A stretch of DNA of 54,016 nucleotides from Bolinopsis microptera (Eukaryota; Ctenophora; Tentaculata; Lobata; Bolinopsidae): contig NW_026971793.1 in assembly GCF_026151205.1 (NCBI RefSeq), positions 1-54,016 of the forward strand, in the 5' to 3' direction. Made by a program: the position numbers and the translations under genes. The notes below the pieces were generated by a model. That model had not been told where the DNA came from, did no database searches, and saw only the letters and a program-made list of their open reading frames with translations. Below are positions 2,143 through 45,335 of the stretch, piece by piece. How positions within the stretch are numbered: the first letter of the stretch is position 1; each line of letters begins with the position of its first letter.

Positions 2143-3817
<1,675 letters not shown>

Positions 3818-4263: not shown

Positions 4264-4269
4264 AATAAA
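4264..4269 (+). promoter_or_regulatory. Candidate poly(A) signal of the ARF gene
   Basis: AATAAA 447 bases after the ARF stop codon, the first perfect hexamer downstream. A second one near 4622 lies inside repeat A and is less likely to be used. Confidence 0.4.
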
Positions 4270-4387
4270 TTTGATATTCAGGGTTTATTATGTAATAATG
4301 CCCGCTCAGTGCAGTGCACGGCGGGACAATCATTATTCACTTTAGAATTAGACATTCTGGGATCTGTTTTGTTTATCGCATTGTAAG

Positions 4388-4770: not shown

Positions 4771-4804
4771 GAGGAGTGGATTTGGCAGTTAGTTAACCAT
4801 ATTA

Positions 4805-4905
4805 CGGGTGATACTCGTAAAATATTTGCTCCAAATATTAGTGACCGTCGACGAGTCCAACTCGGCGCGCGTCTTGGTAGGTTATAAACCTACAAGCAGT
4901 TATTA
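4805..4905 (+). repeat. Dispersed hairpin-rich repeat, copy 1
   Basis: Shares with 19251-19355 the block CGTCGACGAGTCCAACTCGG followed by CGCGCGTC, then a hairpin with stem GTAGGTT/AACCTAC. CGAGT..ACTCG forms a second small hairpin. The segment lies immediately before a Penelope-like endonuclease fragment. Such elements often carry hammerhead ribozymes in their terminal repeats. The 3' part here (GCGCGTC then YTGG) resembles the cleavage-site side of a hammerhead, but no clear CUGANGA and GAAA core is visible. Confidence 0.6.
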
Positions 4906-4932
4906 TTAGCTGCCTGACTCTCTAACATTTAA

Positions 4933-5115
4933 ATGTCATCATTTCGCCTGAAGCGGTACCGAAATAGAACCAAACTGTCAGAGAAGATCTGGTCCTTCAA
5001 AGACCGTAAGTTAGAATTCAGGATCGAATGGACAATAATCAGACGTGGACACGGATACAGAGCCGGCCAGAACAGCTGTGATCTGTGCACGTCTGAGAAA
5101 TTAGAAATCTTACTG
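4933..5115 (+). pseudogene. Penelope-like retroelement, GIY-YIG endonuclease domain fragment
   Basis: About 61 open codons. The fragment begins SSFRLKRYRNRTKLSEKIW, continues through LKR/KDRKLEF/EWTIIRRGHGYRAGQ, and ends in a zinc-knuckle-like C-D-L-C-(TSEK)-LEILL. This pattern is typical of the C-terminal GIY-YIG endonuclease of Penelope-like elements, where SSFxLxxYRNxTxLSxxxW, a KW-I-I-R and CxLCxxEK occur in that order. The amino half of the domain (the GIY and YIG strands) and all of the reverse transcriptase are missing. The frame runs straight into direct repeat B at 5121. It is therefore an internally deleted copy. The assignment rests on remembered family patterns. Confidence 0.75.
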
Positions 5116-5120
5116 TTTTA

Positions 5121-5490
5121 TTCAAATTGAGCTAATCGAGCAGTTAGTTAGGGTAGTGACGTCACATGTCGTGCTTTAATGTTTAATCTGAGAAAATTGT
5201 GTTTACAACGGCACCCCAGATTTATGTTCCTGTTTGATTGTAAGTTTCAATTTGAATTTATTTCATTTTGAATTTATTGACAAGATTTGGTATTATTTGG
5301 ACTAATATTTCGCACATTGGGTTTGTTTACGAAGAATCAAAAAGCATTCAGTTAAAACTTGGCAATAAAATAAGAAAATATCTATTGCTAACATACAAGG
5401 TATCCCTACGTTCAATCTCTTAAATTTTCCGTAAAGCAGATGTTGGCAGCGGGGAATGGAACACGATGCAGCAGACAAATTGTAGGCCAC
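5121..5490 (+). repeat. Direct repeat, copy B (LTR-like)
   Basis: Second copy of the repeat at 4388-4770. Its left edge follows the endonuclease fragment after only a few bases, and its right edge coincides with the end of copy A (TGTAGGCCAC). It has a small insertion (TTTAATG) relative to copy A and lacks its TA tract. Confidence 0.85.
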
Positions 5491-11054: not shown

Positions 11055-11735
11055 AAGATCGAGGGTGAAAGGTAAGTGCTATTAGGGTGAAAGGTTAGTG
11101 TATTCAGGGTGAAAGGTAAGTGCTATTTAGGGTGAAAGGTAAGTGCTATTTAGGGTGAAAGGTTAGTGCTATTCAAGGGTGAATGTAAGTGCTATTTAGG
11201 GTGAAAGGTAAGTGCTATTTATGGTGAAAGGTAAGTGCTATTTAGGGTGAACTTTAGGTGCTATTCAGGGTGAAAGGTAAGTGCTATTTAGGGTGAAGGT
11301 AAGTGCTATTTAGGGTGAAAGGTAAGTGCTATTTAGGGTGAAAGGTAGTGCTATTTAGGGTGAAAGGTAAGTGCTATAAGGGTGAAAGGTAAGTGCTATT
11401 TAGGGTGAAAGGTAAGTGATTATTTAGGGTGAAAGTAAGTGCTATTTAGGTTGAACAGGTAAGAGCTATTAGGGTGAAAGGTAAGTGTATATAGGGTGAA
11501 AGGTAAGTGCTATTTAGGGTGAAAGGTAAGTGCTATTTAGGGTGAAAGGTAAGTGCTATTTAGGGTGAAAGGTAAGTGCTAATTAGGTTGAAAGGTAAGT
11601 GCTATTTAGGGTGAAAGGTAAGTGCTATTAGGGTGAAAGGTAAGTGCTATTTGGGTGAACTTTAGGTGCTATTAAGGGTGAAAGGTAAGTGCTATTTAGG
11701 GTGAACTTTAGGTGTATTCAGGGTGAAGTTACGCG
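11055..11735 (+). repeat. ~23 bp minisatellite, about 29 copies
   Basis: Tandem array with unit AGGGTGAAAGGTAAGTGCTA plus TTT. Copies differ by one- or two-base indels, and an ACTTTAGG variant replaces AAAGGTAAG in three units. It lies in the intron between exons 3 and 4 of the - strand armadillo gene. Almost every unit contains GGTAAGT on the + strand. Confidence 0.95.
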
Positions 11736-22929: not shown

Positions 22930-25900
22930 ATCAGTTTCCCGGGCCCCAAAATCGCCCCCTGCAAAAAAAAGGATCAAGATTGATTTGATTTATTTGAAAC
23001 TTTTACAAATAGCAAATATACAAATGACCAACGAACAAACATTAAAATGGGCCAAAAGTATAAAGATAAAGCGGGGTCAGTGAAAAAAATACAGAGGACA
23101 ATTTAAAAAACGAGGTTTATGGGCCCCCCAAAATTTCAAAAACGCACCTCCCCTAGTAAAAAATTTGAAAATATGAAGTTGAAACAAATTATGAAATAGA
23201 AGTGTGAAACAAAAATTATGAAATTGAAGTGTGAAAAAAATCAAGAAAAAGCTCGTTATAAAATTTTAAAAAATTGTTCTCAAATACAGATAAGTCCGAA
23301 AACTATTAAGATACAAATACTCATTCAAATACTGATCAGTGCCCAGAGCATGAATTGTTCATGGTGGTTTTTTACGGGTCAGATTTTCCCTACCGGGGTA
23401 TAGTGGTCAGATGAGTCGTTCACCCCTTCTTCCAGGTCGGTAACCCAAAGTTTTTTCCCCGTTGCTCGTTCTTCCTGATCTATTGGACAGACCATAAATT
23501 TTTTGGGGTCTCAACCCACCCCAGTCTTCCTGTTTCATCAAATCTGTTTAAAAAGCTGTTGACTTGGGCGTGATCTTTCTGGTCTGAAGTCGTACTACCG
23601 GGCCTCTTTTCCCGCCCACTCTGTCGCTTCGAAGTGAGGTTTTTCCCCCCTCTCCCCCCAGAAATGCGGTTACTGCGCTGGAAAACTGTTTCCCCTCTTC
23701 TTCTTTCAAACCCCAAAACAATCAGGTTTTGCTCCCGTCCTCCTCTCGCCACACTCTTCATCACCCTTTTTCAGGAGTTACTGTTTCAGACCGTACCACT
23801 TGCATGTTCTGTTGTACAGTTGCACGTAGCTTAATCCCCGACCCACCGTTGTTTGCACGTTCCTTTAAACCACGTCTTAAAAAACTGTAGTTTTTGTCCT
23901 TCTGCACAACAGTGGCCCTGCAGCTGATCAGCTATCCTGTTTTTTTAACGTTCCGTCTTCAAGAAATATTGATCTCCCCCTTTTAGCCCTGGCATTCAGC
24001 CCTTGAACGAGGTCTATTGCTTCCCCAAGCCCAAGTGCCAGATGCTTTTTTTAGAAGTTTGGGCCAAAATATTTTCTCTGTCCCTATTCCACCAAATCTT
24101 GTGTTATTTTCATTCTTTTCCCCCGCGCAAAGAACCACTTTACAAAAATGTCCTTCAATTTTGTTGTTCATTAAAAACGTACTCGATTTTGTAAACAAAG
24201 ACTCTCTTGAGGGATTATGGATTGATCTTCGAGTTCTGAAGACCCATTTCTCTATCCAATTCCATCTAGCAATTTCACCTTCTGGTTCAACCTTCTAAGG
24301 AGAGCTTGTAGTACGTGCTTTTAAAACCCGAAACCCGTTCGACAACAATACCATTTCTCACCGATTTTGGGTTTAAAAAGGATAGATCACGGAAATGTAA
24401 TACCCCCAGGGTCGTACTTTAAGCTAATTTTTAAAACTCTATTACCCCAGGAGCCACTTTATTACATCAACTTTCTCCCCTTTTCTGTAACCTCTAAAGG
24501 AGCCTCTGAAGGGAAATCGGCAAAATATTTTTGCTCAACAGCAGTCATCATGTTTTTTGCTCAGTATATTGCCGGGGCACGCATTGAAAACCTCCGATCA
24601 AATTATTAAAATTAAAAAATAAAAACCCGGGATATCCACAACTGACAATTCTTCAAGGGGACAAAAGGAAAGTGGGGATGATTACATTAGGACGGGATGG
24701 AGTCAGTCGCCCCAAAAACCCTCTGCTTTTAAGCTTGGAAACATTAGGGGGAATGGGGTGCTTCTTTTCAAAAATTTCCAAAAACTCTTCTTTATGTTTT
24801 ATTGTGGATTTACCGTTATTTAAAACTTTCTTTTTGGAATGAATTTGAGTACCTCAGTCTGTCTCGTTACAATTTTACCAAAAAAAAAATGTTCTTTTAA
24901 ACCCCTTCGAAAAAAAAAATTGGATAACTCATATAACTAACTTAACCCGAGGAAGGCTGTTTTCCTTATAGAACGGGTGGATCAAAAATAATTGACGCTA
25001 TTTGAGCTACCGGAAAGGACCAACACATCTAGACCCAATAAAAATAATTCGATTCTATCATGACTTGTAAGCAGTTTATGAGATGTAAAAATTGACTTCG
25101 GATTCCCATTTTTTATAACCATTGCCTGCCAGGATATTTGTTAAATCGCGAATTATGGATCCCGCAGAAAATTTTGGGTTTTTTGCAAAATTGCGCATAA
25201 AATGTAAAAAAAAAGTACACCAAATGTGTGGCTCTGCAATCGCTGCAACTTTTTTATACCCCGGTTCAAAGTTCCCCTCTAAAATCACCAAAATTAGGGT
25301 GATAAACGAAAAGATATAAATAAAACAGCTTTTATATCAGAACAGAGGGTGTATAATTAGAAATTTTTTTATCATTCCCAGCCGTCACAGTTTTTTTTCT
25401 GTTTTTTGTTAAAATCCCTGCCTGTTGCGTGGTTATAATGCCCCCCCAATACCGCGGAATTTTAATAATGTTATAAGCCGGTGCAATGATGCATGGGTAC
25501 AATTTTACTTGAATTGGCCATTAATAAAGGCTAGAAAATTTTACCCCGTAACCATTGGCTCACTGTTTTCAAGTTTTATTCCAAACTGTTAGTTTTTGTT
25601 TTTAAAAATTTTGCAGTTTTTTTTGGTGTTTTTTAAACCCCTTTCGGCCACCTTTTGCATAGATTCACTTTTTTTAAGTGTGGGTACAGAGACTACAACA
25701 CACACACACACACAGACTGTGGGTATGATGGGAGTGTTGTTTGTAGATAAAAGCCCATGGTGTTTTTTGTTTAAAATAATGAAAAATCCCTGAAAGCATC
25801 CCCAACGCTTGGGAGTCTTTCCACCGTATGCAATAACATTCCTGGTGAGACTATTCCTTCAGTTTATTTATAGATAATATAAATATAAATATAGTTTTTT

Positions 25901-28900
25901 AATTATCCAAACTTTATTCCCTTTAATATTGATTTTGTAGAAGATTTTTAACGCCAGTGAACTGGGATATTGTTATTTTAACAAGACTTAATCCCCCCCC
26001 CGAAAACAAATTTTATTCAAATGAATTGGAAAAAATTAATTTTAATAACCCCTTTTTTTGTTCGGGAATCCGAATTCGTCAGGTGGTGCCAGGGAAGATT
26101 TTTTCCCACAAACCTGGGAAAAAAAAAAAAAGGACCCTCCTAACAGAAGGGATGATGTGTTCCCAAAATCCGACCCAAGAACCTACAGAGCGGAAGCGAT
26201 TTTTGAACTGCCCCACTCTTCGGATAAACAAATTTTGGTTTTAAACCCTTTTTTAAAAACTATTGAACGATGATTAAAAACGGGATGATGCCCATTATGA
26301 ATTAAAGATTATAAAATCTTTACAAAACCATAAAATTTAAATTTTGAAAAAACTTGAACCCACCGTCAAGTCACCACCCCAAAATTTTTGCCGTAAGATA
26401 ATGGAAAAAGGAAAAATTTAATATTGAATTGGAACCGCCGGGTGGATGTTGGTAATGAAAAATCCCCTTTTCCCAGCCATTTGGCTTTTTTCCGATAAAA
26501 AAACCCGAAAAAATCCAAGAATTTCCCATCTCCTTGCCTAGTTTTAAACACTCTCAAAAGACATTGGATTACTATCATGGTGGGGCATTTTTGTTAGCTA
26601 TGTGCCTAACTTCCGAGTAATATACAAAAAATCCCAGATTTTCCCAATTTCCCAAGTTGAGAAATCGTGGTTTAAAGTTTTGAGAACGAATGGAATGGAG
26701 AAGCTGTTCATAAACTTGGACAATTTTAAAGAGAATTGACCGTAATTTTATTTCCGATTTTGCCCGCTGACCCTTAAATACTCAATTCAAGGCCCTTGCT
26801 TTTGTATAGATTGTTTTTATCCCAAATTTTCCCTTTTTCCGTACAAGTTGCACGTAAAAAACTTCAATAAATAAAATTTTTTTGATCCCCGTTGAATAGA
26901 AATGACCCCCGCAAGCAAGACTGGCTCCTTTCCCTGTGGGTCAGGTTTTAAAAATACAAATACATTCTGGAAAAATGATAGGCACCCCTTAAGGGAAGGT
27001 TTTATTCCCTAGTAGTGCTTGTCCCCAATTTGGGAATTTTGGTAATAAATTGTGCAATATAAAGAAACATTTTTGGTCCCTGCTTTTTTTTCTAATATTT
27101 TAAAAAACATTAAAATGAAGAAAAAATACTGAAACCCGGGAAATGGAATAGGTTTATGAATAAGGTTAAAAAAAAAATGTCCACCCTCCCATTACATGCC
27201 CCCTGGGGCCCCCCCCCCCCCGAAATAAAATTCACCATCAATTTTTCACTTTTTCGATTTTTCAGTTTTTTATTTTGTTTTTGGTTTTTTTACTCAAGAG
27301 TTTTTACAAACAAATGGTGGATCCAAGAAGCTAATTTTATTAACTATTCGATTGATGCCCCCCTTCCCCTTAGGAATAACAGTTTATAAGGGTCGAAGTA
27401 ACGGGCCCTCGTGTAATTGAAAGGTGGGTCCCCAAAATCCCAACTGGTCCCGCACCCCCTTCCATTGATTCCATATTGAAATAACCAACCAATTATTTTA
27501 ATCCCCAACCGCAATCTATTCAAGTTAATAATTTCAAACTACGTTAAAAATTAAGTTAGACCTTTTGCCTAACAATCAGAAAAACCTTTGCCCAAAATTT
27601 TAAGATTATATTGAATTTGTTCCCACAAATTATTTTTAATTTATTTTTTTTTGGTAATTGTAAACATTAAATCCCCATTTATATTGTAGTTGCAAGCTAA
27701 ATAAATTTTTTTGAAACCGGTTATATAATAAAAGTACAGAGTAAATGAATAACATTTTGACTGGATATAAATTAAAAGCCCGCCATAGTACTTACATTTT
27801 CCCCCCTAATAAATTTCCCCACCCAGTCGTGCAAGAAAAATAACACAACGGGAAAGATTGGGGGGGAAGAAAGAATCAATTTGGGGCCTGGAAATCCTAA
27901 ACCTATCACTTTAAACGGATGCTTACCCAACACTTAGACCGAGGTTTTAATTTCCCCCCCCAATAAAACGGACCAGAAAATTTTTTTTTAATTGGGTTTT
28001 TATAAAAAATATTTTAAAAAAGGAACCCTTCCAAATAAACTAATTCCAATAAAAACGATTACTTCTTTTCCCTTCATGACCCAGAATCCTGGCACCTCGG
28101 ATCCCTAAATCCATAAGTTTTCTGAAACACCAAAGGCTTAGACCCAAAAAAAAACCAAGACAATTTTATTGCCGATGGAAATGTTATAGCCCCAACCGGG
28201 TATCCCCCACAAAACCAATAATAAAAAAACCCCACCTTTCTAAGTCAGAAGAGGTGGGCCAAACCCCCAAAAGTTACCATTTTTTGGTGAAATGAAAAAA
28301 ACAATCCGGAAAATTTGAAAAAATTTTTTGCATGTCTACACTGGTCCCTGTAAATCCCCCCCGTAAAAAAGTCATGGGCTGAGAGAATGAGCAGAGGAAA
28401 GAGACAGAGTGGATATATCAGGGGCCCTCGGCATTAGGTGGTTTTTTTAAAAATTTCCAAATCGAAATTAATCCTGTGTTCATACTAAGAGACCTTTTTT
28501 AAGCTTTTGATTTTCTTTTAAGAAGGGTTGGTTTTCTGTGTCAGGTGTGACCTGTTATATAAAAGGTTCGTTTCCATCCTTACAACAGAATAATCCATAG
28601 TGAACGTACCCCTACAATTTTAAAAAAACTTTTATCAGAGCAGCGAAACGGTGGGGCAAATGAAACCCTTTTTAGGTATGTGGTGGATCTATATATATAC
28701 TGTGTATCTTCCACCGTCTTAGGGATCGCCAAAAATTTGCTACAATATACAACAGAACTTAGTATAAAACTCGAAACCCCCCCTTAAAAAGCCCTCTCTG
28801 CGGTGCGTGTAGTCTATTTTTTAAACCTGGGTTTCACTGGGTGCGTTTTCCTAATCCAAAGCTTGGGCATTAAAAACGGGGAGAATTGTTTTTTTTTCTA

Positions 28901-31900
28901 CTTGAGGTTTAAATGTCCTCATGGGAACCTACACGGGGCGTAAATATTTTGGTAAGAGATGGAAAAAATGAAGGTTAAGGGTGGGGGCCACTTTTTTTGA
29001 GTTGTATCCTACTAATCCGCAGAATTCCCCCCATTTGGACAAAAAACTTATTTTTGGTTAAGAGAATTTTACATTTTTACTTCCAAACAATGGTCCACAA
29101 AAAATTTGATAAATTGGTTTTGGAAACCAATGGCAAAAACCTAATTTAATGAATTAATGGATAAACAAATCGATTTTCAGGAGGGAAAACAATCTTGATT
29201 GTATTGACGGCACAGACGAAGTTTAAGAAAAATTTATTTACACGAAAATAATAAAACTGTTTTAAGATGGTGGATAAAGAAGTACGGTATTGGAAGCTTT
29301 TAAAGTTCAAGAAAAACTTGGTATGAAAAAAAAGGTGGGTCCTGTAATTTTCCAAGAAACAAATTAATGGGGAAAACAGCCGCCTCCGGTTGTTAATTTA
29401 ATAATAGCTAATTTTGGATATTATCGAAGATTAGGCCGCCCCCTAATTGGTTTATTTTATTCGTGATCCTCCCTTTTAATTCCTCTTACAACCCTTTGCC
29501 CCTCATCCCTTAAATCTCTTCTCGCGCTTTACCAACTTAATTAATTACATATTAAGCAAAAACTTCCCCAGGAAAAAAGAAAACGGTAAAAAAAGAAATC
29601 GAAAGTTAATTGGTTTTTATTTTCCCGTGGGGCTGACCCCCACCAAACCGATGAACAGTGGGTTTATCTTTTTACGTGCCATTCCCCCCCTGGGTCGTGG
29701 GCCCAAAACCTGCTTCTTATTCCCATCCCCCTCGATTTTTCGGTTTGTGGGACATGGTCCCCATTCTTTATTTTGCTGATTCATATCAACCAAAGAAATC
29801 CTAATGTTTTTAATAAACGTAAACAGTTTTATCCACAGGCCAGAAAATACCTTAAGAGTTTTTTTTCCAGATCCAAATACACCTCAAAACTTTGGGACTG
29901 GAATTCTTTGTGTACCCGCCAAGATAAAATAAAAATGTACGTCCCCCCGAATTGAAACCTATGACATACCCAAAATCAGAGATTTATATTTTTTTTTTTC
30001 CTTCCTGGTCACTCCATCAAAAATGTTTTCCTAGAAAATTTTAATAATCAACAAAATATATCCCCCTCGGAAACTCCCCTTTCAGTTTTACTTTTTTCCC
30101 CCCTCAAACTTGATTCCAACAAAAACCTTTAGGAGAAATCCCCCAGGTTGGAAATTCAATCCATTTTTTTGGAACAATATTTATCCCGTTTGAAATCATA
30201 ATATTGGAATGGTCAACGAGGTGAAAGAAATAACAACGGAAAAATTAAAATCAATCCGAAAATTTAAATTTTTTAATAAATTTTTTTGGGCCCCGACCCA
30301 CCTAACTAAACTAGGGTTTTTTTTAAAAAAAAAAAAAAATCGGGTGGGCCCCCAAAATTAATTCAACTCATATTTCCTAACTCCTTACCGTTTCCCCCCC
30401 AGAATAATCCAATAATCATATCCCCAATTTTTAACTGCCCAGTTTTGTTTCAAAGACCCACCTAAAAAAAAATATTATTGGAAAAAAAAAAAAAACTTTA
30501 TGTTCTCTACTTCCCACTGTATAAAATGGAATAACGTTAAAAAAAATTAACAATTACACAATCCCCCAGAACCCCTTCTTAAAATGCCGACGAAATAATA
30601 AAGGCATATCCCCCACCAGAAAGCCCCCGGCCTTATAAATGAATCCTTACCAATGTAAGGGGGTAATTATTAATAAGAAAAAAGGTTTTTGTTTATTTTT
30701 TTCCCTAAACAACAAGAAAACCCGTAAATTAAGAAGAGAGCATGGTACCAACTGAAAGGATCAAACAAACCAAGGTGAAAAGATTTCTATACATATGTTT
30801 TAATTGTTTTAATAAAAGCCTTTTCCTTTTCCCTTCCCTATAAAACTAGTAAAATTACCCCCCCCCCGAATTTTACCGCAGAGTTTGGAAGAAAAAGGAA
30901 AAAAGCACCGCAAAGTAAAAATCCGGGTTTGGCCCGGTTTTATAAAAAATCGGGGGGTTTTTTTTTGCCCCTGTTATATGGGTTTTGTTTGTTTGGACAG
31001 TTTGACGGAAGAAAACCATTGTTTTTGTCCCTTAGTTACCAAAAATTGGAGGGGCCAGTTTTTTCCCAAAATTACAAAAATTTGATCTTTCCCCACAGGC
31101 CGTTCCCACCCCCCCCCCCCCCAAGACTGGAAAAGCAATTGGAAAAATGGCCTGGGTAAACTTTGGACCCAATTTTTTTTTCCCCTTCAAAATTGGGACC
31201 CCTGAAATGTCCTTCTTCTATTGAAAATGGTAAAAATAACCTGAATATTTTCGTTAACTTCGGAAAAGGGTTAAATCAAATACTGTTTATTAAAGAATTC
31301 ACAACCCTGAAGAAAAATAAATAACCTAGCTCTGTTGGCCCCACACTGGGTATAAATCCGTGTGAAAAATGAAAAAAAAAATTTAACGGATGAGAAAACT
31401 CACGAATGGCCACTGAAGTTTTCTTAAAATTCCCAAAGGTTCTCAAAACTTACTGGTAAAAAAAGAAAACTTATCGACTGTTTAGTAGGAAAAAGACCTT
31501 GTTGCCTGTGCAAAGACCAAAACCCCCTTCTTCATGGTCTATTACTAAAGGAAGTTTTAAGAACACCGAAGGAAAATATTTCCCCCCTAAACATTTGATG
31601 GAAAAATGTGGGATTTTCTTCACAAGTTACTTTGGATAATTCAAACGGTAAAAATTTTTTTGGTTTAACATGTTTCCACTTAAAACTTAAGAATTTTATT
31701 TTCTAAGTGAATTTAGTTCCATGAAAAATTTAAATTTTGTTTTTTATGTCACCGGTGGCAAACAAAAGGAAAAACCTAAGGGTTAAAATTTTGGGCTTTT
31801 TTTTTTCTTCTGCAGGAAAATATGGAAAAGAGAATTATTATTTTTTTTTTTAATAGTACCCCTCCTGAAAAGGAAAAAAAAGGTTTAAAAACATATGTAT

Positions 31901-34900
31901 CGAATTCTGCCTACCTTAAACAAATAAAGTAAGTTATAAATTTTTTAAAATATTAAATTTTAATTAGGGGAAATTTCAAGTGTTTTACATTTTTATAATT
32001 TTAATTGGGGCCCCTAACATCCAACAAATAATAAATTTTAAAGTAACTTTGATCTTTGCCTTTACTAAACAAATGAATCAAAACTATGTTAGGGGATAAA
32101 GAGCCAGTTTTCCGAATGGCTTTTTTTTGGTAATACATTTCCCCCCCTTCCGGTGAAAAGAAAGGTACTCATTTTTTGAGTGGGGGGGGACAGAAAAGCT
32201 TTTCCGGGGTCACAACTTAGCTTAGAGCCGCTGTTTTTACGCGTTTTTTTTTTAGTTAATAATAAATCCCATTTTTTTCCCCCTTGTTTTTCCCTATCCC
32301 TATTCCCCTTATCTTATGGATTTGTAAATAAATTTAAATTAAAAAACACCAAAAAATTGTTTGGTTACACCCAGTCCCCCCGTCCATAAGGTTTAATTAA
32401 AGTAATAGTTAAAGTACTTAATAGCAGGAAAAACCCGTTCAAAATAAAAAACCCCTAAAATTGTTGGGGTACCAAAGACTCAAATAAATCTAAAATAAAT
32501 TAATTACCTATTTTTTAATTTTCGCGATTTTTTTGACACCACTTTGGGGGGTCCCCCCCAAAACTTTGGGGGCTCTAAACTCCCTCCTTCCACTTGGCCC
32601 AAAATTTTTTATAATTTTTTATCCATGCCTGAAGAAAAAAATTTGGAAGGCGCCCATTTAACGCCCCAATTTTTTGTTTGAACCCAGTCAAAAAAGTTTA
32701 TTTCAGTTTATGTATATCTTTTTTTACAGGTTTATTTTGCCGCGGAAAGGTCCCCGTTAAAAAGTAGGAATGCCCCCGTTGGGTGGTTTTAGTAAAAGGT
32801 TTTACGGATAAAAAACACCAAACATCACCTTCCAATTAGAATTTTTAGAAAATTAGAAATTATGAAAAATTTAGAAAATTTAGAAAAATTATAAAATTAT
32901 TAAAGAAATTTAGAAAAAAATTAGAAATTTAGAAAATTTAGAACATTAAGAAAAAAATTTAGAAAGAATTAGAACATTTAACGAAAATTTGAAATTAGAC
33001 AATAGAAAATTAAGAAAATTAAAGAAAAAAATTTTTATAAAATTATGAAAATTAAGAAATTTAAGAAAATTAGAAAAAATTAGAAAGGATTCCATACCAA
33101 AATTACAATGTGTCACAGATTCCCCAAAATTTTCAGTTAAAATGAAAGTTATACAAAAACCCAAACAAAAAAAAGTAAAATTACCCCCTTCCCAACCGCC
33201 ATTTTTAATATATAGTATAAAAGATAAACCCATATAACAATATTTCAAAGCGGCAAGGGACACCCCGATAATACTTCTAGTAATGAAAAATCCATCTTAG
33301 TTGCGTTAAAAGAAATGCATAAGAATGGTGGGGTGCACTATTTTTAAAACAACTATCTCCCAACAATTGAGAACCCTCTAAAATGGACCCCCTCGTTAAA
33401 AATAACCCTCTAATGAGTCCCCCCCATCCCCGAAAATATAAACCTAACTTTACATTATAATTAAACCGAGAAGTAAAGAAACCATGTAAAAAACTTAATT
33501 TTCGAAATTTGCCTCCAACAAATTTATCAGAACTGAATTTAAATGAATCAGCATAGCCTTGGAAAAACACAAAACGCAATTCTAGTTTTAAACCCCAATT
33601 GCCCACTCACCTTCTTAAGCGAAAGTTTTGAACCGCATAGTTTTTTGTCCATGGGGGAAATTTACAAGTGGGTTGTAACTGAATAGTTAAAAAAAAACAA
33701 AAACCAATAAGGATTGTGGGGTAAAAAATAAGCCCACGTAAGGAACCTACGCTGAACTCCTTTTCCTAAAGTTGTTGGGGAATATATTATTTGTTAAAAT
33801 CCTTTTGTATACAAACCATCGTCGTAAAAAAAGTCAGATGGGGAATTTTGAAATTTTTTTTTGTGGTAACTTTTTATTTTTTTGGGAAAATGAAATTTTA
33901 ACATTTTTACACTTTTAGATGAAAAAATTTTATTTTTTTTAAGGAAAATTGACAATTTTATTAACGATTTTTTGGCTTCCCTGGAGAAAAATAAACGCCA
34001 GGAGGAACAGAAAAACAACTTTTTCCAAAAAACCCTGTCCCCCCCCCCCCCTGGTGGACCAAAAAATTGACGTGGTTTGAATCCGAAAATAAAATGAGGT
34101 AATTTTGAAAAATTAAACAAAACACATTGTTATGATCCCGGCCTGAAAATAACGGTATGCTTATAAAAAAAAACTTTACTTTGCTTTGAATTTCCCCCCG
34201 CTCCAATACTGTAAAAACCAAAATTTTGCAAAATGAAATTACTGGTAAAAAAAAACCAATTATTCAATCACAGGAAATCCCCAGAAAAACAGATGGAAAA
34301 CCACGAAGAAGCCCAGCTAAAATAATAGGAAAAAGAAAAAAAAGACCTGGGTTAAAAACACTTTGAGCAAAAGATGCATTACCATCAAGTCAGTTACTCG
34401 AAAAGCCTTTTTAAAAATTTAGGTAAAAAAAAGGTTGGTCCATTTTCAAAGTAAGTACCTTTTTTTTTCCCCACTTTATTACCCTTTAAAAAAAAAAGAA
34501 ACCTTTTTTTCTTCATGGCTACAATGAAACCCCCCATCCCTGTTTTAAATTCACCTCTTCTCAGATAAAACTCCCAAACCTTTAAAGTAATCCGGAAATT
34601 ACAATTTGCTATTTCCCCCCAAATTATTTGTTTTGAACCCTGTTTAGCGCCGGCACACTTCAAACTTCCCTTCAGCCAATATACAGACAACAGTTTATAC
34701 GCTCTCCCCGAAAATGGTTTTAATTTGTTGTTGGAATGTGCATTATCACTCCCTAAAATTACTTAATTTAAATCCAGTTTTTTTGGAAATATCTTTATTT
34801 ATTTTTATCAAAAACAAAATTTTTACAATTAAATTTTAGAATCCACTTCCGTATGAACTTTTTTTTCCAACTGAAATTAGAAAACAAAAGCCCAAATTGG

Positions 34901-35900
34901 TAAAAATATTTGTCCCCACCTAATGCTTACTCCGTCACATCATGTTTTGAACCATAGACCCAAACGAAATTTTGGAAATCCAATTTTTTACAGAAGATGG
35001 AATGGGAAACCCCAATTTTTGATAAATCCCCGCAAAATATCAAAACCATATTTCCCCCGGACCCTTAGCTATTGCAACTGCCCCTTTTTTTTATTATTGA
35101 ACGATCATTAGTTTAAAATTATCACTGATATACATGTTAACCTATGTAACGAAAGACCATTTTAATCCCTTTTCAAACCCTTGATATCCCTAAGATTATT
35201 TTGTAGGAAAAAAATAAAAATAAGTTTCACATTTGTTTATTTTTTGAGGTTTCCCAAGTTTTTATTTATAGGTAAAACCAAAATGAAAAATTATTATAAT
35301 TTTTTTTTGCCCTTCAACCATTTCCTTTCAAGTTTTCCTCCCAGTTCTCTATTTTTCTGTTTTTGTAACGTGTGTTTATTATTATTACATAAAAAATGAA
35401 TTTTGACACTCCATTTTCAGATTCCAGGAAAAAAAAAAAATACACAATTGGAATTCACCTGGTTTCCGCATTCCTGAGATCCCCCATAGGGAAGAATCCA
35501 CCCCCTTTTGGACAACTATATCCCCCAATCGGCAAATATTTTTTTGGTTTGATAATTTTTACCCCCCTCAAGTTTTTTGTAGACTTTTTTTTAACAAATA
35601 CTTTTTATGTTATCCTTATTCCCCCAGGACCGTTGATTTTTTTTTCTGAAATTTTGATTGGTCCCCCCCTTATGGCCCCTGATATATCAGGAATGGAATA
35701 ATCATATCGGTTTTTTTACAAAGAAACACATATTTTATGGATGACCCGATTACTCCCCTTCCCCGGTTCATGGGACTTTTTGTCGCCATGTTCCTGTTTT
35801 TTTTAAATTTTCAGGTAGAAATTTCCCTCCCACGGGTCCCGCATTTTGTTTTTTCGCAGAAAGAGTTTTTTTTCTAATAATTTTCCACATGTTCCCCCTC
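22930..35900. other. Low-accuracy sequence, no gene can be supported
   Basis: From about 22.93 kb runs of A, T, C and G of 4 to 14 bases become abundant in every line, and no long conserved frame is found. The change is abrupt. A - strand stretch near 23480-23764 contains VNSFLNRFDETG and may be a retroelement piece. Other frames of 60 to 110 codons are rich in F, K, P, G and N, as expected from translated homopolymers. Real exons may be hidden but cannot be called. Confidence 0.7.
32835..33090 (+). repeat. A-rich low-complexity tract (TTAGAAAA type)
   Basis: About 250 bases made almost only of irregular TTAGAAAATTTAGAAAAA-like units, with hardly any C. A degenerate simple repeat; the true unit length is obscured by run-length errors. 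Confidence 0.75.
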
Positions 35901-35904
35901 CGTC

Positions 35905-38620
35905 CAACCCATATCAATCAACTGATTTGGGAATCAATTTTTCAGGCACCCAAAGGGTTTTTTCCATAAACCGATATGTTTATTTGGGATCCCTGTTTCC
36001 CCCCCCCACCCCCGCCGATAATCGCCTTTTATAGAGCCCGCTTTTTTTTTTTCGGCGCTTTTTTTTTTTTTTAACAAAAAAAAAAAAAAACAAACCGTTT
36101 ACCAAATCGCTTTTTTTTTTACGAATTATAAACGGTCTTTTTTTCAAAAAAAAAATCGCACCCCTTAATAATTTCCGACCCCTAATAAATTTTGGTTGTT
36201 TCCCCCATAATTCCCAAAAAAGCGCTTTTTTTGGAATTTAAAAGCGCCTTATAAGCGCTTTTTTAAAAAGCGCCTTAACTTAGCGGTCCGCGGAGCTGAT
36301 TTTGAAAAGCGGTTTTTTTCTTCCCCCCCAGTAGGAATTATTTGGATGCCCCCAAAAAAACGGGTGGATAAAGCCCGGTTATTTTTGCCGATAGCCCAGA
36401 TTCGTAGCAGACTTTTTTTTTGAAAACCATTTATAAGCGATTTTAAATAAAAGCCGCTTTTATAATTGGGGTGTGGGCAAATTAGCTTGTTAGTTTGAAA
36501 GCGCAAATAAAGCCGCCTTTATAAACGCTTTATTAAAATTGATTCAGGGAAAACTTTAATAAATTTAACATCCATTTTATCACCCGCTTTAAATAAATCC
36601 GATTTATAATCGGTGTTGTTTTTTAGAAAAGCGCTTATTAACGGGCCTAATTCAAACCTTATTCCAACCCGCTTATACCGCTTTTCCCTAATCATCCTGG
36701 GCCCCCAGGTGAGCAGGAATTTAATAAAAAGCGCTTTAATAATGGCGCTTTTTTTTTTTTTTTCCGATGCAAGCCCCCCCCTAGCCCCCCTGTCGGAACG
36801 GGGGTAGGGGGGTGCCCCGGAATTTAAATAAAACGCCATTATAAGCGATTTTACTTCAGTTCCCCCTGTAAAAACCTGGTTGGAACCTTTTCCCATGGTT
36901 GCTATTTCCTGAACAAAACCTGGGTGTGCAAAACCGGCAAAGAGTCCAAGGAATTTAAAAGCGACTTATAGGCCCACGCCTTTTATGATCCGCCACTTCT
37001 TCCTAACACCGCCTTTTTTTTTTTTTCACTATCACCCATGGGGCCCCCCCCCTGGTTTTGGCAAGAAATTAAATAAAAGGCTGCACATTATATAGCGTTT
37101 TTTTTTATCTTTCAAATGCTTGCGGCCCCCTAACCCTTTGTTCGGGAAAACAGGGGGGGGTGGCCCCACCCGAATTAAAAAAGCGCTTATAAAGCCGCCT
37201 TTATTTTTCCAATGCTTGGCCCCACTATAAACCCTGGTCCGATAAACGGGGTAAAAGTTTCCCCGGAAATTTAAAAAAGCCGCTTTAAAGCGAATTTTTC
37301 TCTCAATTCCCTTTCCTCCCCCTTATACCTGGTTGGAAACTTTTCATGTTCCCCTTTTTTCCTGACCCAAACCCCTGGGGGTTGCCATGGCTACCCCCCC
37401 GCAGAGTCAGGAATTTTTAAAAAGCCGCTTAATATTGCCCCATTTATGGAAAAAAATCGCGTTTCTACCGATTTTTTTTCTCTAATCAACCCTATGGCCT
37501 GGTTATGGCCAAAAGAATTAATAAAGCGCTTTTTTTATAACCGATTTTTTTTTTTTTCAATGGCCTGGGGGGCCCCTAACCCCCTGTTTTTTTTTTTTCG
37601 GAAAAAAACAGGGGTTGGTGCACCCCCGGGAATTAAAAAGCGCTTATAAGACGCTTTTTTTCCAATGCCTGCCCACAACCTGTCCTCCGGAAACGGGGGG
37701 GATATGTGGCACCGGAAATTTGAAAAAGCGCTTTTATAAAGCGATTTTCCATCCAATTTCCCCCTTAACCTGGTTCCCAACCGGACAACTTGCGTGAGTG
37801 GACTTTTTTTTTCTGAAGCAAAACCTGGGGTGCACCCCTTACAAACACGCAAGAGTCTAGGATTTCCAAAAAAGCGCCTTATAGGCGGGGCACTTAATGG
37901 GAAAAATCCGCATTTTCCTACCTAAAAACCGCTTTTTTCTTCTAATCACCCATGGCCCTCCTGGGTGGCCCAAGAAAAAATAATAAACCTGCTTTTAAAT
38001 AAGCGTTTTTTTTTATTTTCAAATTGCCGCCCCTTAACCTGTTTTTTTTTTCGGGAACAGGGGTGTGCCCCAGGAAATGAAAGCGCTTTTTAAATGATGC
38101 GCCTTTTTCTTCCCCCCTACCGCCCATTATTTTTCCCTCTTTTCACTATCCCCCCATGGCACCTGGTTGGCCCCAAAAAAAGAATTATAAAAAGCGCTTT
38201 TAAAGCCCGCCTTTTTTTTCAAGCTTGCACCCACTTAACCCTGTCCCCCGGAAACGGGGGTAGTGCCCCCGGGAATTAAAAAGCGCCTCCTAATTAAAGC
38301 GCCCTTTTTTTTTAAAATAACAATGGGCTGCGCAGTTTATAAGCCGATTTTACACAATTTCCCCCCTATAAACCTGGTCCAGAATACCCTGGAATAAAAA
38401 CAGTGTTTGGGGCCCCCGCCCTTATAGTTTTTTTAATAATTGACCTTTTCTTTCTTGTGCAAACCTGGGGGTCACCCACACCGGCCAGAATCAAGGATTT
38501 AAAAAAGACCGCCTTTATAGGGCCCGCCCCTAATGAACCCCGCCCTTTTTTTCCTTCTATCAAACCCGCTTCTACTTAAAATCGCTCGCACCAAATTTTT
38601 TAGCCCCCCCTTTGGGGGGT
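35905..38620 (+). repeat. Satellite-like array, left arm of a large inverted pair
   Basis: Boxes of the type AAAAGCGCTTATAAAGCGC recur about every 90 to 150 bases. Between them, longer blocks repeat in fixed order roughly every 450 to 460 bases. One is CCCATGGCCCTGGTTGGCC (near 37030, 37485, 37945, 38150); one is AGAGTCxAGGATTTAAAA (near 36940, 37400, 37850, 38490); one is CCCCCTATAACCTGGTT (near 36860, 37315, 37760, 38360). This suggests a higher-order unit of about four subrepeats. Most differences look like run-length errors. The outer edge near 36010 has CGCCGATAATCGC and long A/T runs. Confidence 0.75.
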
Positions 38621-40859
38621 AATGAAAAAAGTGATCTGGAAATCGGATATGTAAAAAAATTTTTGGGACCTGGAATTCCGAATCCAACCCCCCCATTAAA
38701 CGTTAGGTTAAAATGCCATTCCCTTGGAGAATTTTTTTTTTTTTTTTATGGACATAAAAAAAAAAAAAAAAACCGTTTTTTTTTTTTGGTCACCTTACAG
38801 GCCAGTTAAAAAATACCAATTCGAATTGTTTTAAGGGCCCCCTATTAGGGTAAGGCATCTTTTGGGAAAAGGGGTTTATGGTATTTTAACTTCGGGTTTT
38901 TTATGGGTGTTAGGGGTTAGGTTGGGAAATTTTAGGAAAATTTTTTATGTAAAACCGTTTATTGTACGGAGCCCTTGCAAAAAACCCCAAAAAAAACCCA
39001 AAGTCCAACCCTGAAAATTTTTTTTTTGGGGCCGAGACTGAATTAGTAAAAAAAAGGCCCCGAGTTTGGACCTCCCCAAATAAAAAATGGAACAAAATAT
39101 TTTTACGAGTGGGGGTCACCCGTCCCAAATTCCTCCCCGCAATCCACCATTCAAACACATTGCCGCCCTTTCCGATAGTATTTATTTGGTAAAAAATTCA
39201 ACCACTAACTTGGGTGCCCCTCGCCCCCAGCTTGGTAAATATTGGAACAAAGATTTTGACTTCACAGCCTTGTGGGAGGTCAATAATTTTATTTTTGTGT
39301 TCTCAAAATGTTTATTTAGTTTTTTCAATGCGTTAAAAATATGGGCCATATCAAGCCCTTGTTTAACCGATTTCCCACGAATTAAAAACCGCGCCCCAAT
39401 TTGTTTAATTTACCTTTATGACCTATGTTCCCCCCCAAATAGACCCCAACTTACGCCCCAGGTTTTTTTATAACAGGGGTGGATACCACTAAATTGACGG
39501 ATGTTAGTACCACCGTCTTAAAAAGTACGCCGTCGCCCCCCCCCCGCTTTCCCTTCCCACGAAAAAATGGCCCCCAAACGAATGGGGCTACGTTGGGGGT
39601 GTGGGCTATGGGTTCCCCGGCCCCAAGAACCCAGTACATTGTAAACATCAAATTGGGTCCAAGTGATTTACTCTTTAAAAAAAAATATTTTTTTATCCAC
39701 AAAATATAACAATTTTACCCCCGGCGAACAATTAAGTTGTCACTCCCTTGCACCCCATGGCTTATAGGTTTATAAAATACGTTTTAGCCCATGGTAATAA
39801 ATACATCTGTTTAATAATAATGGTTTTATAAAACACAACAAACTTTAATGGTTTATAACTAAATATATAAAAGCCCCCCATTGTAGGGGGGTGGGGAATT
39901 TTCCCGAAATTGAAAGCGTAACCCCCCCTTGTTAGGTTAATAACCCTTTCCAGGCGGCGGCGCCCCCCCCCGAGTTTGTGACCCTCGTATCCGACGTTTG
40001 AACCATTTGTTATATGGTATCTCTTTGGGCCCCCCGGGGCGCGTGACGCCTTATCTTCGTAAGCAACTTTTTGCCAAAATCGAATCCCTCGAGAAGAAAG
40101 GTGGGCCGCGTTGCCTACTTTCGAAAGAAAATTATTAAGACCTAAGTAAAACATGAACATAATCCGTCCCCCCCCCAATCGTTCCCCGAAAAACGGTTCC
40201 CCCCCCCTAAAATAATGTTGAAACAAAATATAATTTACGTAGGTAAAAATCTCAACCGTTTTTTTAAAAAGCCGTCCACCCCCCAAAATCTTATACCAAA
40301 TTTTGAAAATCCAATAAATTTTAAAAGCAATTTTTTTAATTAATTAATTGTAATTATTAATTACTCTGTTTACTTTTAGTATGTTTTAAATGCCACGACT
40401 TCGCCTACGTGGCAAAAATTAGTTAAAAAAAGCAAAAAAAAGGTTGTTACATCCAATGAGCTAAGACATAGTAAACCCAGTTTTAACCTGGGAACCCCCC
40501 AGACTAATTAAGTTGCCATATAAACCCCATTAATAATCCCGAATAAAGAATTTTGGCGGAATGAAACCCAGGCTGAAAGCCCCTTTGAAGCGGCCCCCGC
40601 CCTAGTAAAAAAAGGTAAAACCCAAGTTGACCATTTGTTTTTAAAGGGTCCCAATAGCCCCAGAGCCGACCTTTTTTACGTCCGTAATTAATAGCACTTG
40701 CCATCGAGGCAGAAAAAGCCGCCGCAACGGCTTACCTTCGAAGTAAATTTTATAGACGATAAACTCCCGTCCCACAAAAGTAAAAACCAGTAACCATGGC
40801 CACGAGGGTTGAGGGGCCTATGGAGTTACTTAGAACAGTGAACACAGAATTTGCCCGCC
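38621..40859. other. Spacer between the inverted arrays
   Basis: About 2.2 kb without the AAGCGCTT boxes. Low-accuracy sequence; open frames up to 174 codons on the - strand (40286-39762) match no known protein. If the inverted pair is a transposon, any gene it carries would be here. Confidence 0.5.
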
Positions 40860-42715
40860 AAAAAAAAAGCCATTGAAAACAAAACCCGCCTTAAATAAGC
40901 GCTTTTAATAAAATTCTTAGCCAACCCAGGCCCATAGGTTGGATGGAAAAAGGCGGTAGAAAATAAAAGCAATTCATAAAAGCGCCCCTTATAAGCTCCT
41001 TATTTTTAAAATCCTGACACCTGGCCGGTGGTCCCCCAAAAACACCCAGGTTATTGGGCTCCTCATAAAAAAAAAAAGCACATGCCCAAAAGTTGGGCAA
41101 CTCTCCAGTTTTTGTTTCCGAACCCAGGTTTTTTTTGAAGAAGACTAGGGGATGAAAAAAATTCCGTTTTTATTAAAGCGCCGTTTTATAAGATTCCCGG
41201 GCACAACACCCACCCCCCCCCCCGTATCCGGAACGAGGTTTTTTTTTATGGGGCAGCATTGAAAAAAAAAACTCTTTATAAGCCGCCCTTTTTAATAAAA
41301 ATTTCACTTGCCCAAACCCAGGCCACCATGGGTTTTTTGGGGATTAAGAAAAAAAAAGCGGTAGAAAAGCGACATAAGCGCCTTTTTTAAAACCCTGACT
41401 CTGCCCCCCCCCACCCGGTGGGGGGCAACCCCATGTTTTTGGACTTTCAGAAAAGCAACTTTATATAAGCGGGCACACTGAATAATTTTTCCAAGTGTTC
41501 CCCGACCCAGTTTTCTTAAAGGGGGGGCTAGCATTTTTAAAAAAAGCCGCTTTTATGAGGCGCTTTTATTAAAGTTCCGGGCCACTCCCCCCACCCCGTT
41601 TTCCGAACCAGGTAAGGGGGGCCCGACCCGTGGGGGGCAGCATTTGAAAAAAACGCCTTATATAAGCGCACTTAAATTTCTTTGGTGGATTTTTAGGAAA
41701 AAAAGTGGTAAACAAAAAGCCGATTCATAAAGCGCCTTTAATAGTAGCGCCTTTTTAAATCCCTTACTCCAGCTGCCCCGGTGTCCTAACCCCAGGTTGC
41801 CTGTCCCTCCAGATAAATAAAGCAACATGATAAAAGGTTCCCAACCAGGTTTAAGGGGAATTTGAGAAATCGCTTTATAATCGCTTTTTTTAAATTTTCC
41901 CCCGGGCCACTAACCCCGTTTCCGACCCCCAGTCTTAGGGGCAGCAATCGATAATGTATAGGAAAAAAGCGGTTTAAAAAAAAAGCGGGGTTGAAATAGC
42001 CGTAATGTAAACTTAGCCGTTATAATTTAAGGCGAATTTCTTAAAAAAACGCTTTATAAAATCGATTAATAAGCGGTTTTAATAAAAGAAATTGGTAATA
42101 TAGCGTTTCCTGAATACTCATTTTTAAAAAGCCCGCTTTATTAATAAAGCCGCTTTTTAATTTTCGGCTTTAAACAAACAGCTTACAATAATTGCCCCAA
42201 CCACCAATTTATAGTCGCTTAATAATCCGCTTTTGATAAAATTGGGGGATTCAACAAAAAAAAAGCCCGGGCCAAACCGATGAAAAACCGCTTATTTTCT
42301 CACCCGTTTTTTTTGGCGCCCAATCCCAACTGGGAAAAAAAACCGCCCCCGTTCAAATCCGCTCCATGCGGAACGCTTAGTAACGCTTTTAAACAGCGCC
42401 TTTTAATAAAGCGCACTTTTATTAAATTTCAAAAAAAGGCGCCTTTTTTTGAAAATTTTATGCAACCCAACCAAATTATCGGTTCCGAAATTTTAAATAA
42501 AGCGAATTTTTTTTTAAAAACCGTAATTTATAATCCGTCACAAAAAAAATAAGCAATTGTAAACCGGTTTTTTTATTTTTTTTTTTTTTTTTTAAATAAA
42601 CGCCGAAAAAAGCCGCCTCCCAAAATTAAGCGATTTTTATCGGCGACCGAAAAAATCATAAAAATATCGTTATGGAAAACTTGCCCCACCCCAATTTTTC
42701 ACTTTTGATATATTT
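40860..42715 (-). repeat. Satellite-like array, right arm, inverted relative to the left arm
   Basis: Reverse-complement forms of the left-arm blocks occur: GCCAACCCAGGCCCATAGG (40920) and CGAACCCAGG (41119), with AAGCGC boxes throughout. Its outer edge near 42530-42680, read backwards, gives CGCCGATAAAAATCGC, a CGGCTTTTTTCGGCG block, long A/T runs, an ACCGGTTTACAA-like stretch and TTTTCCATAACGATAT. The left array has the same items in the same order at 35965-36150. The two arms therefore share an outer boundary in opposite orientation. Confidence 0.7.
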
Positions 42716-43984
42716 TTCCCAGCAATCTTCCCTCAGCCCTAGCCAGTTAAAAGCCAATTTTCCCCTGGTTTATAATGTCCCCTCGTATTTGTTGTTTACA
42801 GCCTTTTGCTAACTCACTGTTAAACGTTTTTTACTAACCTTACTGTAAAACGTTCCCTTGTTTGAATTAGAACGAAATCATTGAGGCATTGAGTTTACGT
42901 TAACTTACAAAAAACCCCCAAAAAAAATATGAAATTTTTGTTCCGAATTTTTTTTTGAATTAACCCCTTATTTTTCCTAAATGGTTTAAATTAGAGTGGG
43001 TTATTTTCCCCCCCGATCACCTATTATCAAATATAAACAATCAATAAAAACGGTTTTTTATAATTTCCTTAAAATACTAATTGAAAACTTTTTTCCAGAA
43101 CGTAGTCCCCCTTCCTTTGTCCCACATATTCCCCCTGCCGAAAACATCCCCCCTTTCCCTGGGGAATATTTTTGACCCACTTGATAATCCCCCCGTGCCC
43201 ATACAACCAGGATTTTACCACTATAACAAAACCGACCCATGGTCCACTTTTTGAAAGTATTCACTCCCTATATCCCTACCCCTGTGCTTGGTAAAAAAAA
43301 GGTTTAATGTATTTAATAAAATACTTTACCTAACAATAAAAAATGGGGGTTTTAAAAGTTTTTCAATAATATCAATTTTGGTTTTTCCAGATAAGAAATA
43401 ATATTCCCGAATCAAAAAGCCAACTTTACCAACGCAAAAGGGAATGGAATACACAAACCTCCGGTTGCCTGATATTTAATTTCAAGCCCTGCCTTAAGTC
43501 CATTGGTAATTCCCTTGGCGGGTCTTTTGATTGGGTCCGTCACTGGTCCCTTAAAAAAAACCCAAAGTAATTCTACATTCTAACCTGTAACTACTCCCAA
43601 AAGAAAAGTCCCCCACGTGGGATGCCCCCATAGCCAGTTTGGCCTGTGGTTTTAAAAATAAATAACCAAACATGGGTTTCCCCCCCCAGTGGATTCCCCA
43701 GGTTGTGTTAAAATACTAAACAAAATATACCGAGACAGAAAACATGGAATTTGACTTGGCCTGTGGGGGGAGCCGGATAAATTTATAGTTTTTTGCTTGA
43801 TTTTGCCCCTTCCAGAGGCTTCCCTTTTTAGAGGGTACAGAATAAAAAAAAACAATGGTTTGAAGCCAATAAATTTTGGGCGCCTAAAACAGGTGGGGTG
43901 TGTAAAGTAAGAGGTTTAGAATACCTTTTAGATTGGGAAGTAACGACCCTTGAAGGTGGATTTAACATTCTCACGGTGGATCGA
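42716..43984. other. Low-accuracy stretch upstream of the ABCC domain, no exon identified
   Basis: The ABCC gene should have membrane-domain exons upstream, but none could be read through the frame noise. Confidence 0.4.
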
Positions 43985-44575
43985 AATCTTTCTTTAACCC
44001 AACAACCATGTGATAAAAGATAAAGGTTATTTGTTGGTCTCCCCGAAACTGGTCAGGTTAAAAGTTAAAACCATACTTCCCAAAGCCTCTCCTTCAGAAT
44101 GGTTGAACCAGAAAAAAAGGGTGAAATATTTTACTAGATGGGAAAAATGGTTTTTGACCCTAGAGAAATGGGGGTCTTTCTATGAAAACTCAAGAAATCC
44201 ATCCAGCCATAATCCCCGCAAAGAGAGGGTCCCTTTTTTTGTTTTCAGAAACTCTGAAGAAAGGTACAAATCCTTGATCCCGTATTTTTTTTAGGTTCAG
44301 ATGGGGAATGGAAATTACTTGGGTGGGAACGCGCTTAAAAGAGAAAAGGTAGAAGTTTGAAAAATCCGTAACGATTTTTTCAGGCCCCAGAACCATGGGG
44401 GAAAGGGTCCTGGAGATATGGATGGTCCCAGGGAAGGGTGGGGGGAATCTGTCCCAGGCTGGTTCCCCCCCCAGAGATGACAGCTTGATTTGTTTGTTCC
44501 TCGCTAGGAATCCTTTTAGCTGAAGGACAAACAAGTTTTCTGGGGGTTTAATTGACGAGGCTACTGCTAATGTTT
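43985..44575 (+). CDS. ABCC-type transporter, second nucleotide-binding domain, noisy multi-exon copy
   Basis: Frames shift constantly, but the pieces are collinear with ABCC NBD2. Near 43990-44075 a stretch resembling NLSLTIQP precedes a Walker A region (VGxTGxGKSS-like, after skipping extra bases). LQSLxRMVEPE and GEIFLDG-like residues follow near 44080-44140, then TLEKWG, then a Q-loop region around 44210 (IIPQ-like, followed by FxFSET). About 44293-44355 starts after an acceptor (TTTTTTTAG) and reads SDGEWK..ALKxEKVEV. About 44470-44575 matches the 22379-22470 exon: QRQLI, LKDxKxFL, then IDEATANV exactly. Order, spacing and introns suggest a real gene with consensus errors. Membrane domains were not found upstream. 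True exon limits cannot be set. Confidence 0.6.
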
Positions 44576-45335
44576 TGAAACCGAAGGTGTAGGGGAAATT
44601 TTGCATCCATTTCACCCCAAATGAATGTGTTTACCGGTTATTTAAACGCTTGGGGAATGGAACCTTCCCCATATTATTGTTTTTGGTAAACGACCGTAAA
44701 CAAATAATAAAATCCATATAAATTTTGTTTTTTCAACTTGGGCTCCGATGATTATTCAAGCCAGAGTTTTTATGAAATTTTTTCTCCTTTCCGAAAAATT
44801 GTCCCCGGTTAATTAAATCTTTTAAAGTTAAACCCAAAACTAAAAGATTTATATTTGTAAAATTTATCAAAGTCCAATATCGGCCTTTGAAAAATTAAAG
44901 GCAACCTTAATAACATTTAAATATATCCTAAACAAATCATTTTAAAAATATAAATATTTCCAGCCGAAAAAAAACTGAACCAACTTGATTCCATCAGAAA
45001 CTCCCTGCCGCAATAGAAAGTTTTTTTTTCGAAATGACTACTGTTTCCCCCTCACCCATATGACTCCCACAGAGATCCAATACCCATTATTGAATAAAGC
45101 CGAACCGTAATATGTAGGATCGCGAGGGTAAAAATTACCCATGAAATTTAGACCCAACCTGCAAATTGCTTTCCTGAAAAGACCCGAAAATCTTTTTCCT
45201 AAAACGATTTAGTCAACGAAACTGGGAATTTTTTTTGAAAAGTTTTGGTTGGGATCAAGCGAACCCAAATGAAAGTTTTTGGATACATCAAATTAAAATC
45301 CAGATAATAAGCCCATCAAAAACAATAATAGTTCG

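Follow-up and report, generated by a model that had tools for sequence, protein, structure and literature searches.

A dispersed family of non-autonomous foldback DNA transposons in the ctenophore Bolinopsis microptera and its possible connection with Merlin/IS1595 transposases

The window, as the whole 54,016-nucleotide stretch analysed here will be called, is contig C34 of a Bolinopsis microptera assembly of 264.65 Mb in 232 contigs. It carries an element in which two arms enclose a middle (Table 1), both arms being arrays of the box AAGCGCTTATAAGCGCTT, a perfect 18-bp palindrome. A self-comparison of the window aligned positions 36013-37230 with 42645-41516 in inverted orientation (E 6.6e-42; 61% identity in this noisy contig), and additional inverted matches were seen within the arm arrays; the pair is absent from the output of an exact-seed repeat search. 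The inverted match bears out the two facing arrays in mirror orientation that were noted in a preliminary description. The span given there, 35905-42715, does hold the element, but its limits overshoot by 30-40 bases on either side. Two stretches, 38130-39163 and 39631-40854, lie partly within the middle and match inner parts of other copies of the element.

Table 1. Features of the foldback element in the window
Feature	Position	Strand	Remarks
Foldback element	35945..42685	.	Noisy length 6,741; placed by end positions and by the window flanks joining at L045 8480-8482 (C8) without the element
Target duplication, left copy	35935..35944	+	Noisy CAATTTTTCA; C8 target is ATCAATTTCACTTTG
Target duplication, right copy	42686..42701	+	Noisy CCACCCCAATTTTTCA
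Left arm: terminus and palindromic-box array	35945..38600	+	Inner edge approximate
Middle	38601..40880	.	Between the two arms
Right arm, the left arm inverted	40881..42685	-	Inner edge approximate

The quality of the contig was assessed against matching stretches elsewhere. Compared with the matching stretch of contig C8, the flanks of the window copy are longer by factors of 1.40 and 1.36, and most of the surplus bases (682 of 786 and 476 of 551, respectively) duplicate a neighbouring base. The inflation is patchy, with a ratio of 1.39 at 28820-32812 and of 1.03 at 24276-25512, and segments within 6801-7298 are about 92-97% identical to a clean locus. The earlier suspicion of a poorly polished contig was therefore right for most of the stretches compared, and the low identity between the arms is largely due to this inflation. 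Strong inflation, brought about largely by copied neighbouring bases, is also what speaks for reading the inverted structure as a long-read fold-back or assembly artefact. Poor polishing affects how long and how similar the sequences appear and leaves the nature of the element untouched; the element's real length, scaled by the inflation of the flanks, is perhaps near 4.9 kb.

The C8 contig also provides an empty counterpart of the window copy. The right flank of the window copy aligns with C8:13017008-13020534, the match being split into three segments, and parts of this flank also align with C10 and C11. Within the C8 locus L045, the left flank (33361-35940) stops at position 8482 and the right flank (42697-44629) starts at position 8480. 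The family terminus GGCAAGTTTCCATAAACGATATTTTATGATC was not found in this C8 region at up to six mismatches and, as the two flanks meet there, C8 lacks the element. We infer that C34 represents the other haplotype of C8; the window copy is both present and absent within one assembly, filled in C34 and empty in C8. Judging from the C8 target, the duplication flanking the window copy is probably CAATTTCA (8 bp), both noisy copies of which lie outside the element, where a target duplication had been proposed as a check.

A search for recurrence of the outer edge had also been proposed. Clean copies share the terminus GGCAAGTTTCCATAAACGATATTTTATGATC at their two ends, and in the 12 clean copies for which both ends were displayed each end has the form GGCAAGTTTCCATAAACGATATTTTATGATCG(T/G)CGCCGATAATCGC. 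This sequence includes the TTTCCATAAxCGATAT and CGCCGATAA..TCGC previously noticed at the borders of the window structure, and the mirrored outer edge is a property of clean copies too. At up to three mismatches, GGCAAGTTTCCATAAACGATATTTTATGATC was found at 230 places in the genome (113 forward, 117 reverse), while a genome-wide control with the reversed pattern gave 0 matches. Exact ends number 169, of which 88 follow G or C and 81 follow A or T. Only these were paired, by hand, each forward end being joined to the next reverse end; the remaining 61 of the 230, with one to three mismatches, were left out. This procedure yielded 75 facing pairs, which span 91 to 8,961 bp, with 19 ends unpaired: 11 elements measure 91-1,140 bp and 64 measure 2.8-9.0 kb. 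Searches with the arms as queries returned dozens of places on large contigs, numbers that are lower bounds, as only the best candidates were scored.

Twenty-nine copies were fetched, most of them with flanks, and both ends were in hand for 28 (L003 is represented by one end only). An exact 8-bp target duplication is present in 25 of these 28 testable copies: as a direct repeat at the junctions of 23 of the 26 copies for which a single fetched locus includes both ends, and in L008 and L001, which were completed with extra pieces. In L018 the duplication agrees at 7 of 8 bases, in L016 six bases at the junction are followed directly by another element, and at the junctions of L028 no target duplication was found.

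Empty targets are not confined to the window copy. When the flanks of 12 other copies were joined and searched for in the genome, three of them had empty counterparts: L007 (C1:10968477-10968698, 100%), L015 (C13:8992836-8993053, 100%) and L013, the target of which belongs to a repeat family with 38 listed places without the insertion, at 97-98%. Exact empty junctions were read for L007, L015 and two of the L013 places. For the other nine, no match across the join was found among the best 40 of 2,895 candidates scored. For L007 and L015, the filled and the empty target lie near each other on one contig, and the empty one may represent a second haplotype assembled in tandem or a local duplication.

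These results argue strongly against an artefact. Facing end pairs occur 75 times elsewhere in the assembly, the fetched copies carry their own flanks and duplications, and the C8 site is empty precisely at the edges of the element; a fold-back artefact does not fit recurring ends, 8-bp duplications and empty targets, and nothing of that reading is left for the family. We regard it as highly improbable for the window copy as well. The recurring ends, duplications and empty targets (of the window copy and three of 12 others) indicate instead a genuine foldback transposon, as the preliminary description had suggested. The copy in the window belongs to a non-autonomous family of foldback DNA transposons that is dispersed through the genome, has fixed ends and has probably been mobile recently. 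A badly inflated contig can conceal an ordinary transposon.

The clean copies display the architecture of the foldback class, with long inverted arms of subrepeats and a differing middle; the middles are made of common pieces in differing combinations. All 20 long clean copies examined contain the box, with 7-13 exact occurrences of AAGCGCTTATAAGCGCTT per element and 24-47 at up to two mismatches, against a mean of 0 in 20 order-1 Markov shuffles of each copy. The distance between boxes is most commonly 69 bp, followed by 75, 99, 10, 58 and 132 bp, and L014 displays higher-order periods of 243-316 bp. The block of about 455 bases with four subrepeats reported for the window was not confirmed in that form, and the inflation of the contig (1.36-1.40 times in the flanks) may account for part of the difference. 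Over their outer 700 bp, arms are on average 98.7% alike within a copy and 97.8% alike between copies, and the nearest relative of an arm is its own partner in 10 of 40 cases, where approximately one would be expected by chance. This excess and the likeness of the arms fit an element that is copied whole, or arms that exchange sequence to some extent.

A scripted scan of the 29 fetched copies for coding capacity listed 28 frames of at least 120 aa, the longest of 207 aa, several of them being readings of the arm repeats; for L001, L003 and L008 the scan covered the main fetched piece only. Frame listings were made from 100 aa upwards for L006, L007, L016, L017, L018, L020 and L022 and at 120 aa for L005, and L001 had no frame at a threshold of 150 aa. 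A Pfam search with five frames from five copies left four without a match, and the 207-aa frame of L017 gave a match to DUF6451 below the cut-off. When IS1595 and MULE proteins of this genome were compared with the 29 copies by tblastn, nothing better than E 0.55 was obtained. A positive control was provided by the IS1595 proteins of L033, L034 and L038, which recovered one another's loci with E values no higher than 4.3e-42; L057 was represented in this test by its relatives L034 and L033, its own query having been its longest frame, which is not the IS1595 one. Neither the 75 exact pairs nor the 29 fetched copies yielded an autonomous copy with the exact terminus, and the evidence on the transposase class is accordingly indirect. 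The lack of an IS1595 relative inside the copies is as expected of non-autonomous copies, and the 61 inexact ends could include an autonomous one.

Transposase domains are plentiful elsewhere in the genome. The IS1595 domain PF12762 has 58 matches, the MULE domain PF10551 has 88, and hAT has at least 150 (all 150 that were scored, of 366 candidates). The 75 pairs contain none of the 58 PF12762 matches and none of the 148 hAT matches compared with them, out of the 150 scored.

Elements of the same genome that do encode a transposase were used for a comparison of ends. Two related families match PF12762. The first, L057 continued in L061 (1125-4785), has GGCAACTTGTACG at both ends, a duplication GCTTACTG and inverted ends built of subrepeats; another copy, represented by L058 with L062, is flanked by sequences that match at 7 of 8 bases. 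The second, L034 with L050 and L053 (merged coordinates 1414-5332), contains arrays of 11-bp units and has a duplication CTTCCACT; in a search limited to GG starts, its ends read GGCAACTTGGTCG and GGGAAGTTGGTCG (also read as GGGAAGTTGG and GGCAACTTGG). Two further IS1595-type elements resemble each other in their ends: L060 has GGCAGTTTAC and GGCAGTCTCC with AAGAGGGC, and L038, read by eye, has GGCAGTCTAC and GGCATTCTCC with GGAATCAG. The MULE-type element L042, which encodes MULE and FLYWCH domains, has GGCAGTATC ends. One end each was read for L032, L036 and L059. L033/L055/L056, L035, L037, L039, L040, L041, L043 and L044 gave no usable ends and lend the class argument no support.

The foldback end GGCAAGTT agrees with GGCAACTT, the end of the two related IS1595 families, at 7 of the first 8 bases, and with other IS1595 ends at 5-6 of 8. 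A random 8-mer starting with GG would agree at five or more of the other six positions with a chance of 19/4096. The GGCAACTT ends were chosen from several that were looked at. Since part of the L057 locus shares 67% identity with the L034 protein, the two GGCAACTT families count as one witness and not as independent ones. The L033 family, an equally close relative, has a GGTAACTC boundary; in L033, L055 and L056 the boundary is GGTAACTCGG, and no terminal repeat or duplication was found there.

Taken together, related IS1595 families with GGCAACTT ends, 8-bp duplications and repetitive inverted ends favour a Merlin/IS1595-type transposase as the driver, without proving it. Judging from these ends, such an enzyme would be the likeliest mover, a view that we hold with modest confidence. 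An alternative is that the same foldback element is mobilised by a MULE (Mutator-like) transposase. The genome has 88 MULE-domain matches, L042 starts with GGCA and has an 8-bp duplication (TAATATTG), and in L041 inverted tandem arrays flank a MULE gene; most foldbacks reportedly seem to belong to Mutator (PMC4079207). The L042 terminus, however, agrees with the foldback end at only 5 of 8 bases, as compared to 7 of 8 for the two related IS1595 families, none of the 88 MULE matches lies within the 75 pairs, and at E up to 10 the L042 protein had no match in any of the 29 fetched copies. A MULE mover is thus possible, and on this evidence rather unlikely.

An additional scenario involves hAT, P, Zisupton or another transposase that makes 8-bp duplications. 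Target duplications of 8 bp are compatible with several transposase superfamilies, and hAT is abundant in this genome. Against hAT, its ends start with CA, which does not suit GGCAAG; as to P, the genome gave no match to PF21787, in a search whose positive control was silent too. We consider a mover from this group unlikely.

Each long copy consists of two inverted arms, with subrepeats around the 18-bp palindrome, enclosing a differing middle. In the preferred model, a transposase supplied from elsewhere would recognise the GGCAAGTT end and probably the many arm boxes also, if these serve as binding sites by analogy with Galileo. It would excise the element and insert it with an 8-bp staggered cut, a cut-and-paste movement. 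Long, internally repetitive arms with short sites are common to the IS1595-bearing L057/L061 and L034 and to the non-coding family, and the Merlin/IS1595 superfamily may have evolved a foldback form independently in this animal, as Galileo did within the P superfamily; we see the case for this as evenly balanced. If true, arrays of transposase sites in long arms would be a recurrent solution across unrelated transposase families, and the Merlin foldback form would here still show itself, in a single assembly, through filled and empty sites.

Foldbacks are a known kind of mobile DNA, and it is the mover that may be unusual here. Drosophila FB and sea urchin TU, both of foldback architecture, match the present family in shape only and are likened to it by description; FB makes 9-bp target duplications, as opposed to the 8 bp found here. 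Galileo of Drosophila, of the P superfamily, likewise has long inverted arms with tandem repeats, which hold extra transposase-binding sites (PMC3688188); its transposase is of the P-type with THAP, whereas here no P-type match was obtained, in a search whose positive control gave none either. Tm1 of the root-knot nematode, a Mutator foldback, is similar in its composite inverted repeats of variable length and MITE-like members, and differs in its 9-bp duplications and Phantom/Mutator transposase (PMC3169594), no transposase having been found in the fetched copies. Tetris of Drosophila virilis, a suggested Mutator foldback, is also non-coding, with a variable middle, 8-10 bp duplications and an autonomous partner described as not found; PMC4079207 reports only three structurally complete copies, and the likeness is one of description. 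The same source links foldbacks to chromosome inversions and the birth of satellite DNA; for some foldbacks, Tetris included, the transposase has not been found. The MULE-like Rehavkus also carries a minisatellite, placed ahead of the 3' inverted repeat, and makes 9-bp duplications (PMC6446971).

Among the titles and abstracts listed from an open-access literature collection, most subscription journals lying outside its scope, none dealt with a Merlin foldback, and the sequence of the box AAGCGCTTATAAGCGCTT was found in no paper of that collection. Merlin elements are reported in ctenophores and are described as having GG ends, 8-9 bp duplications and inverted repeats of 24-462 bp (PMC8101967). 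The foldback family shares the terminal GG and a duplication within this range, and its end is near that of the two related IS1595 families; it differs in that its long arms exceed the Merlin inverted repeats and in that the fetched copies have no detectable IS1595 relative. We conclude that the family is a new member of the foldbacks, for which a connection with Merlin, as read from its ends, is plausible if unproven. With a large family (75 exact pairs), at least one copy both present and absent, and IS1595 elements of similar form in the same genome, the question of what moves a foldback becomes testable in one species.

An element of IS1595/Merlin type, lying across two adjoining loci fetched from the assembly (L057 and L061), was found to carry a perfect GGCAACTTGTACG at both ends together with an 8-bp duplication; its inverted ends are repetitive within themselves. 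Four further places have matches to PF12762, the IS1595-type transposase domain model, with a score equal to that of this element. In L034, L035 and L037 and the neighbouring pieces L050-L054, 11-bp units (AACCGGCTACT, ACCGGTTAAGA) form long arrays on the flanks of IS1595-type genes, and GTCTATGCAAC was found outward of these arrays in L034 and L037.

Inverted arrays enclose a MULE-domain gene in L041 (C3:14096309), and the facing 15-bp arrays of the window show a best-match identity of ∼92-97% to them. Judged by sequence, the window arrays are probably a relative of this MULE.

Positions of the repeat arrays, elements and closely spaced ends
Feature	Position	Detail
Two facing arrays	window 6801-7298	15-bp unit CGACAATTGACCCCC
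Tandem array	window 11062-11727	23-bp unit AGGGTGAAAGGTAAGTGCTATTT, 29 copies
IS1595/Merlin-type element	L057 1125-4101, continuing into L061 (C6:5037324-5040984)	
Closely spaced ends	C7:13239733/13239740	foldback end just past another element's end
Closely spaced ends	C11:11581232/11581238	foldback end just past another element's end
MULE element	L042 1330-4593	end GGCAGTATCGAGATAGCCCGAC
IS1595 element	L060 981-3686	end GGCAGTTTACAAGAAGCCCGAC

The window contig is a patchwork as to inflation, which amounts to ∼1.4 times in three of the four stretches compared and is almost absent from window 24276-25512 (ratio 1.03). In appearance the contig is a second, poorly polished copy of the C8 region around 13.0 Mb.

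At the two sites on C7 and C11, 5 or 6 bases separate the end of another element from a second foldback end, and this close setting possibly reflects a preference for insertion beside an end already present. The ends of L042 and L060 are alike, even though their transposases belong to different families.
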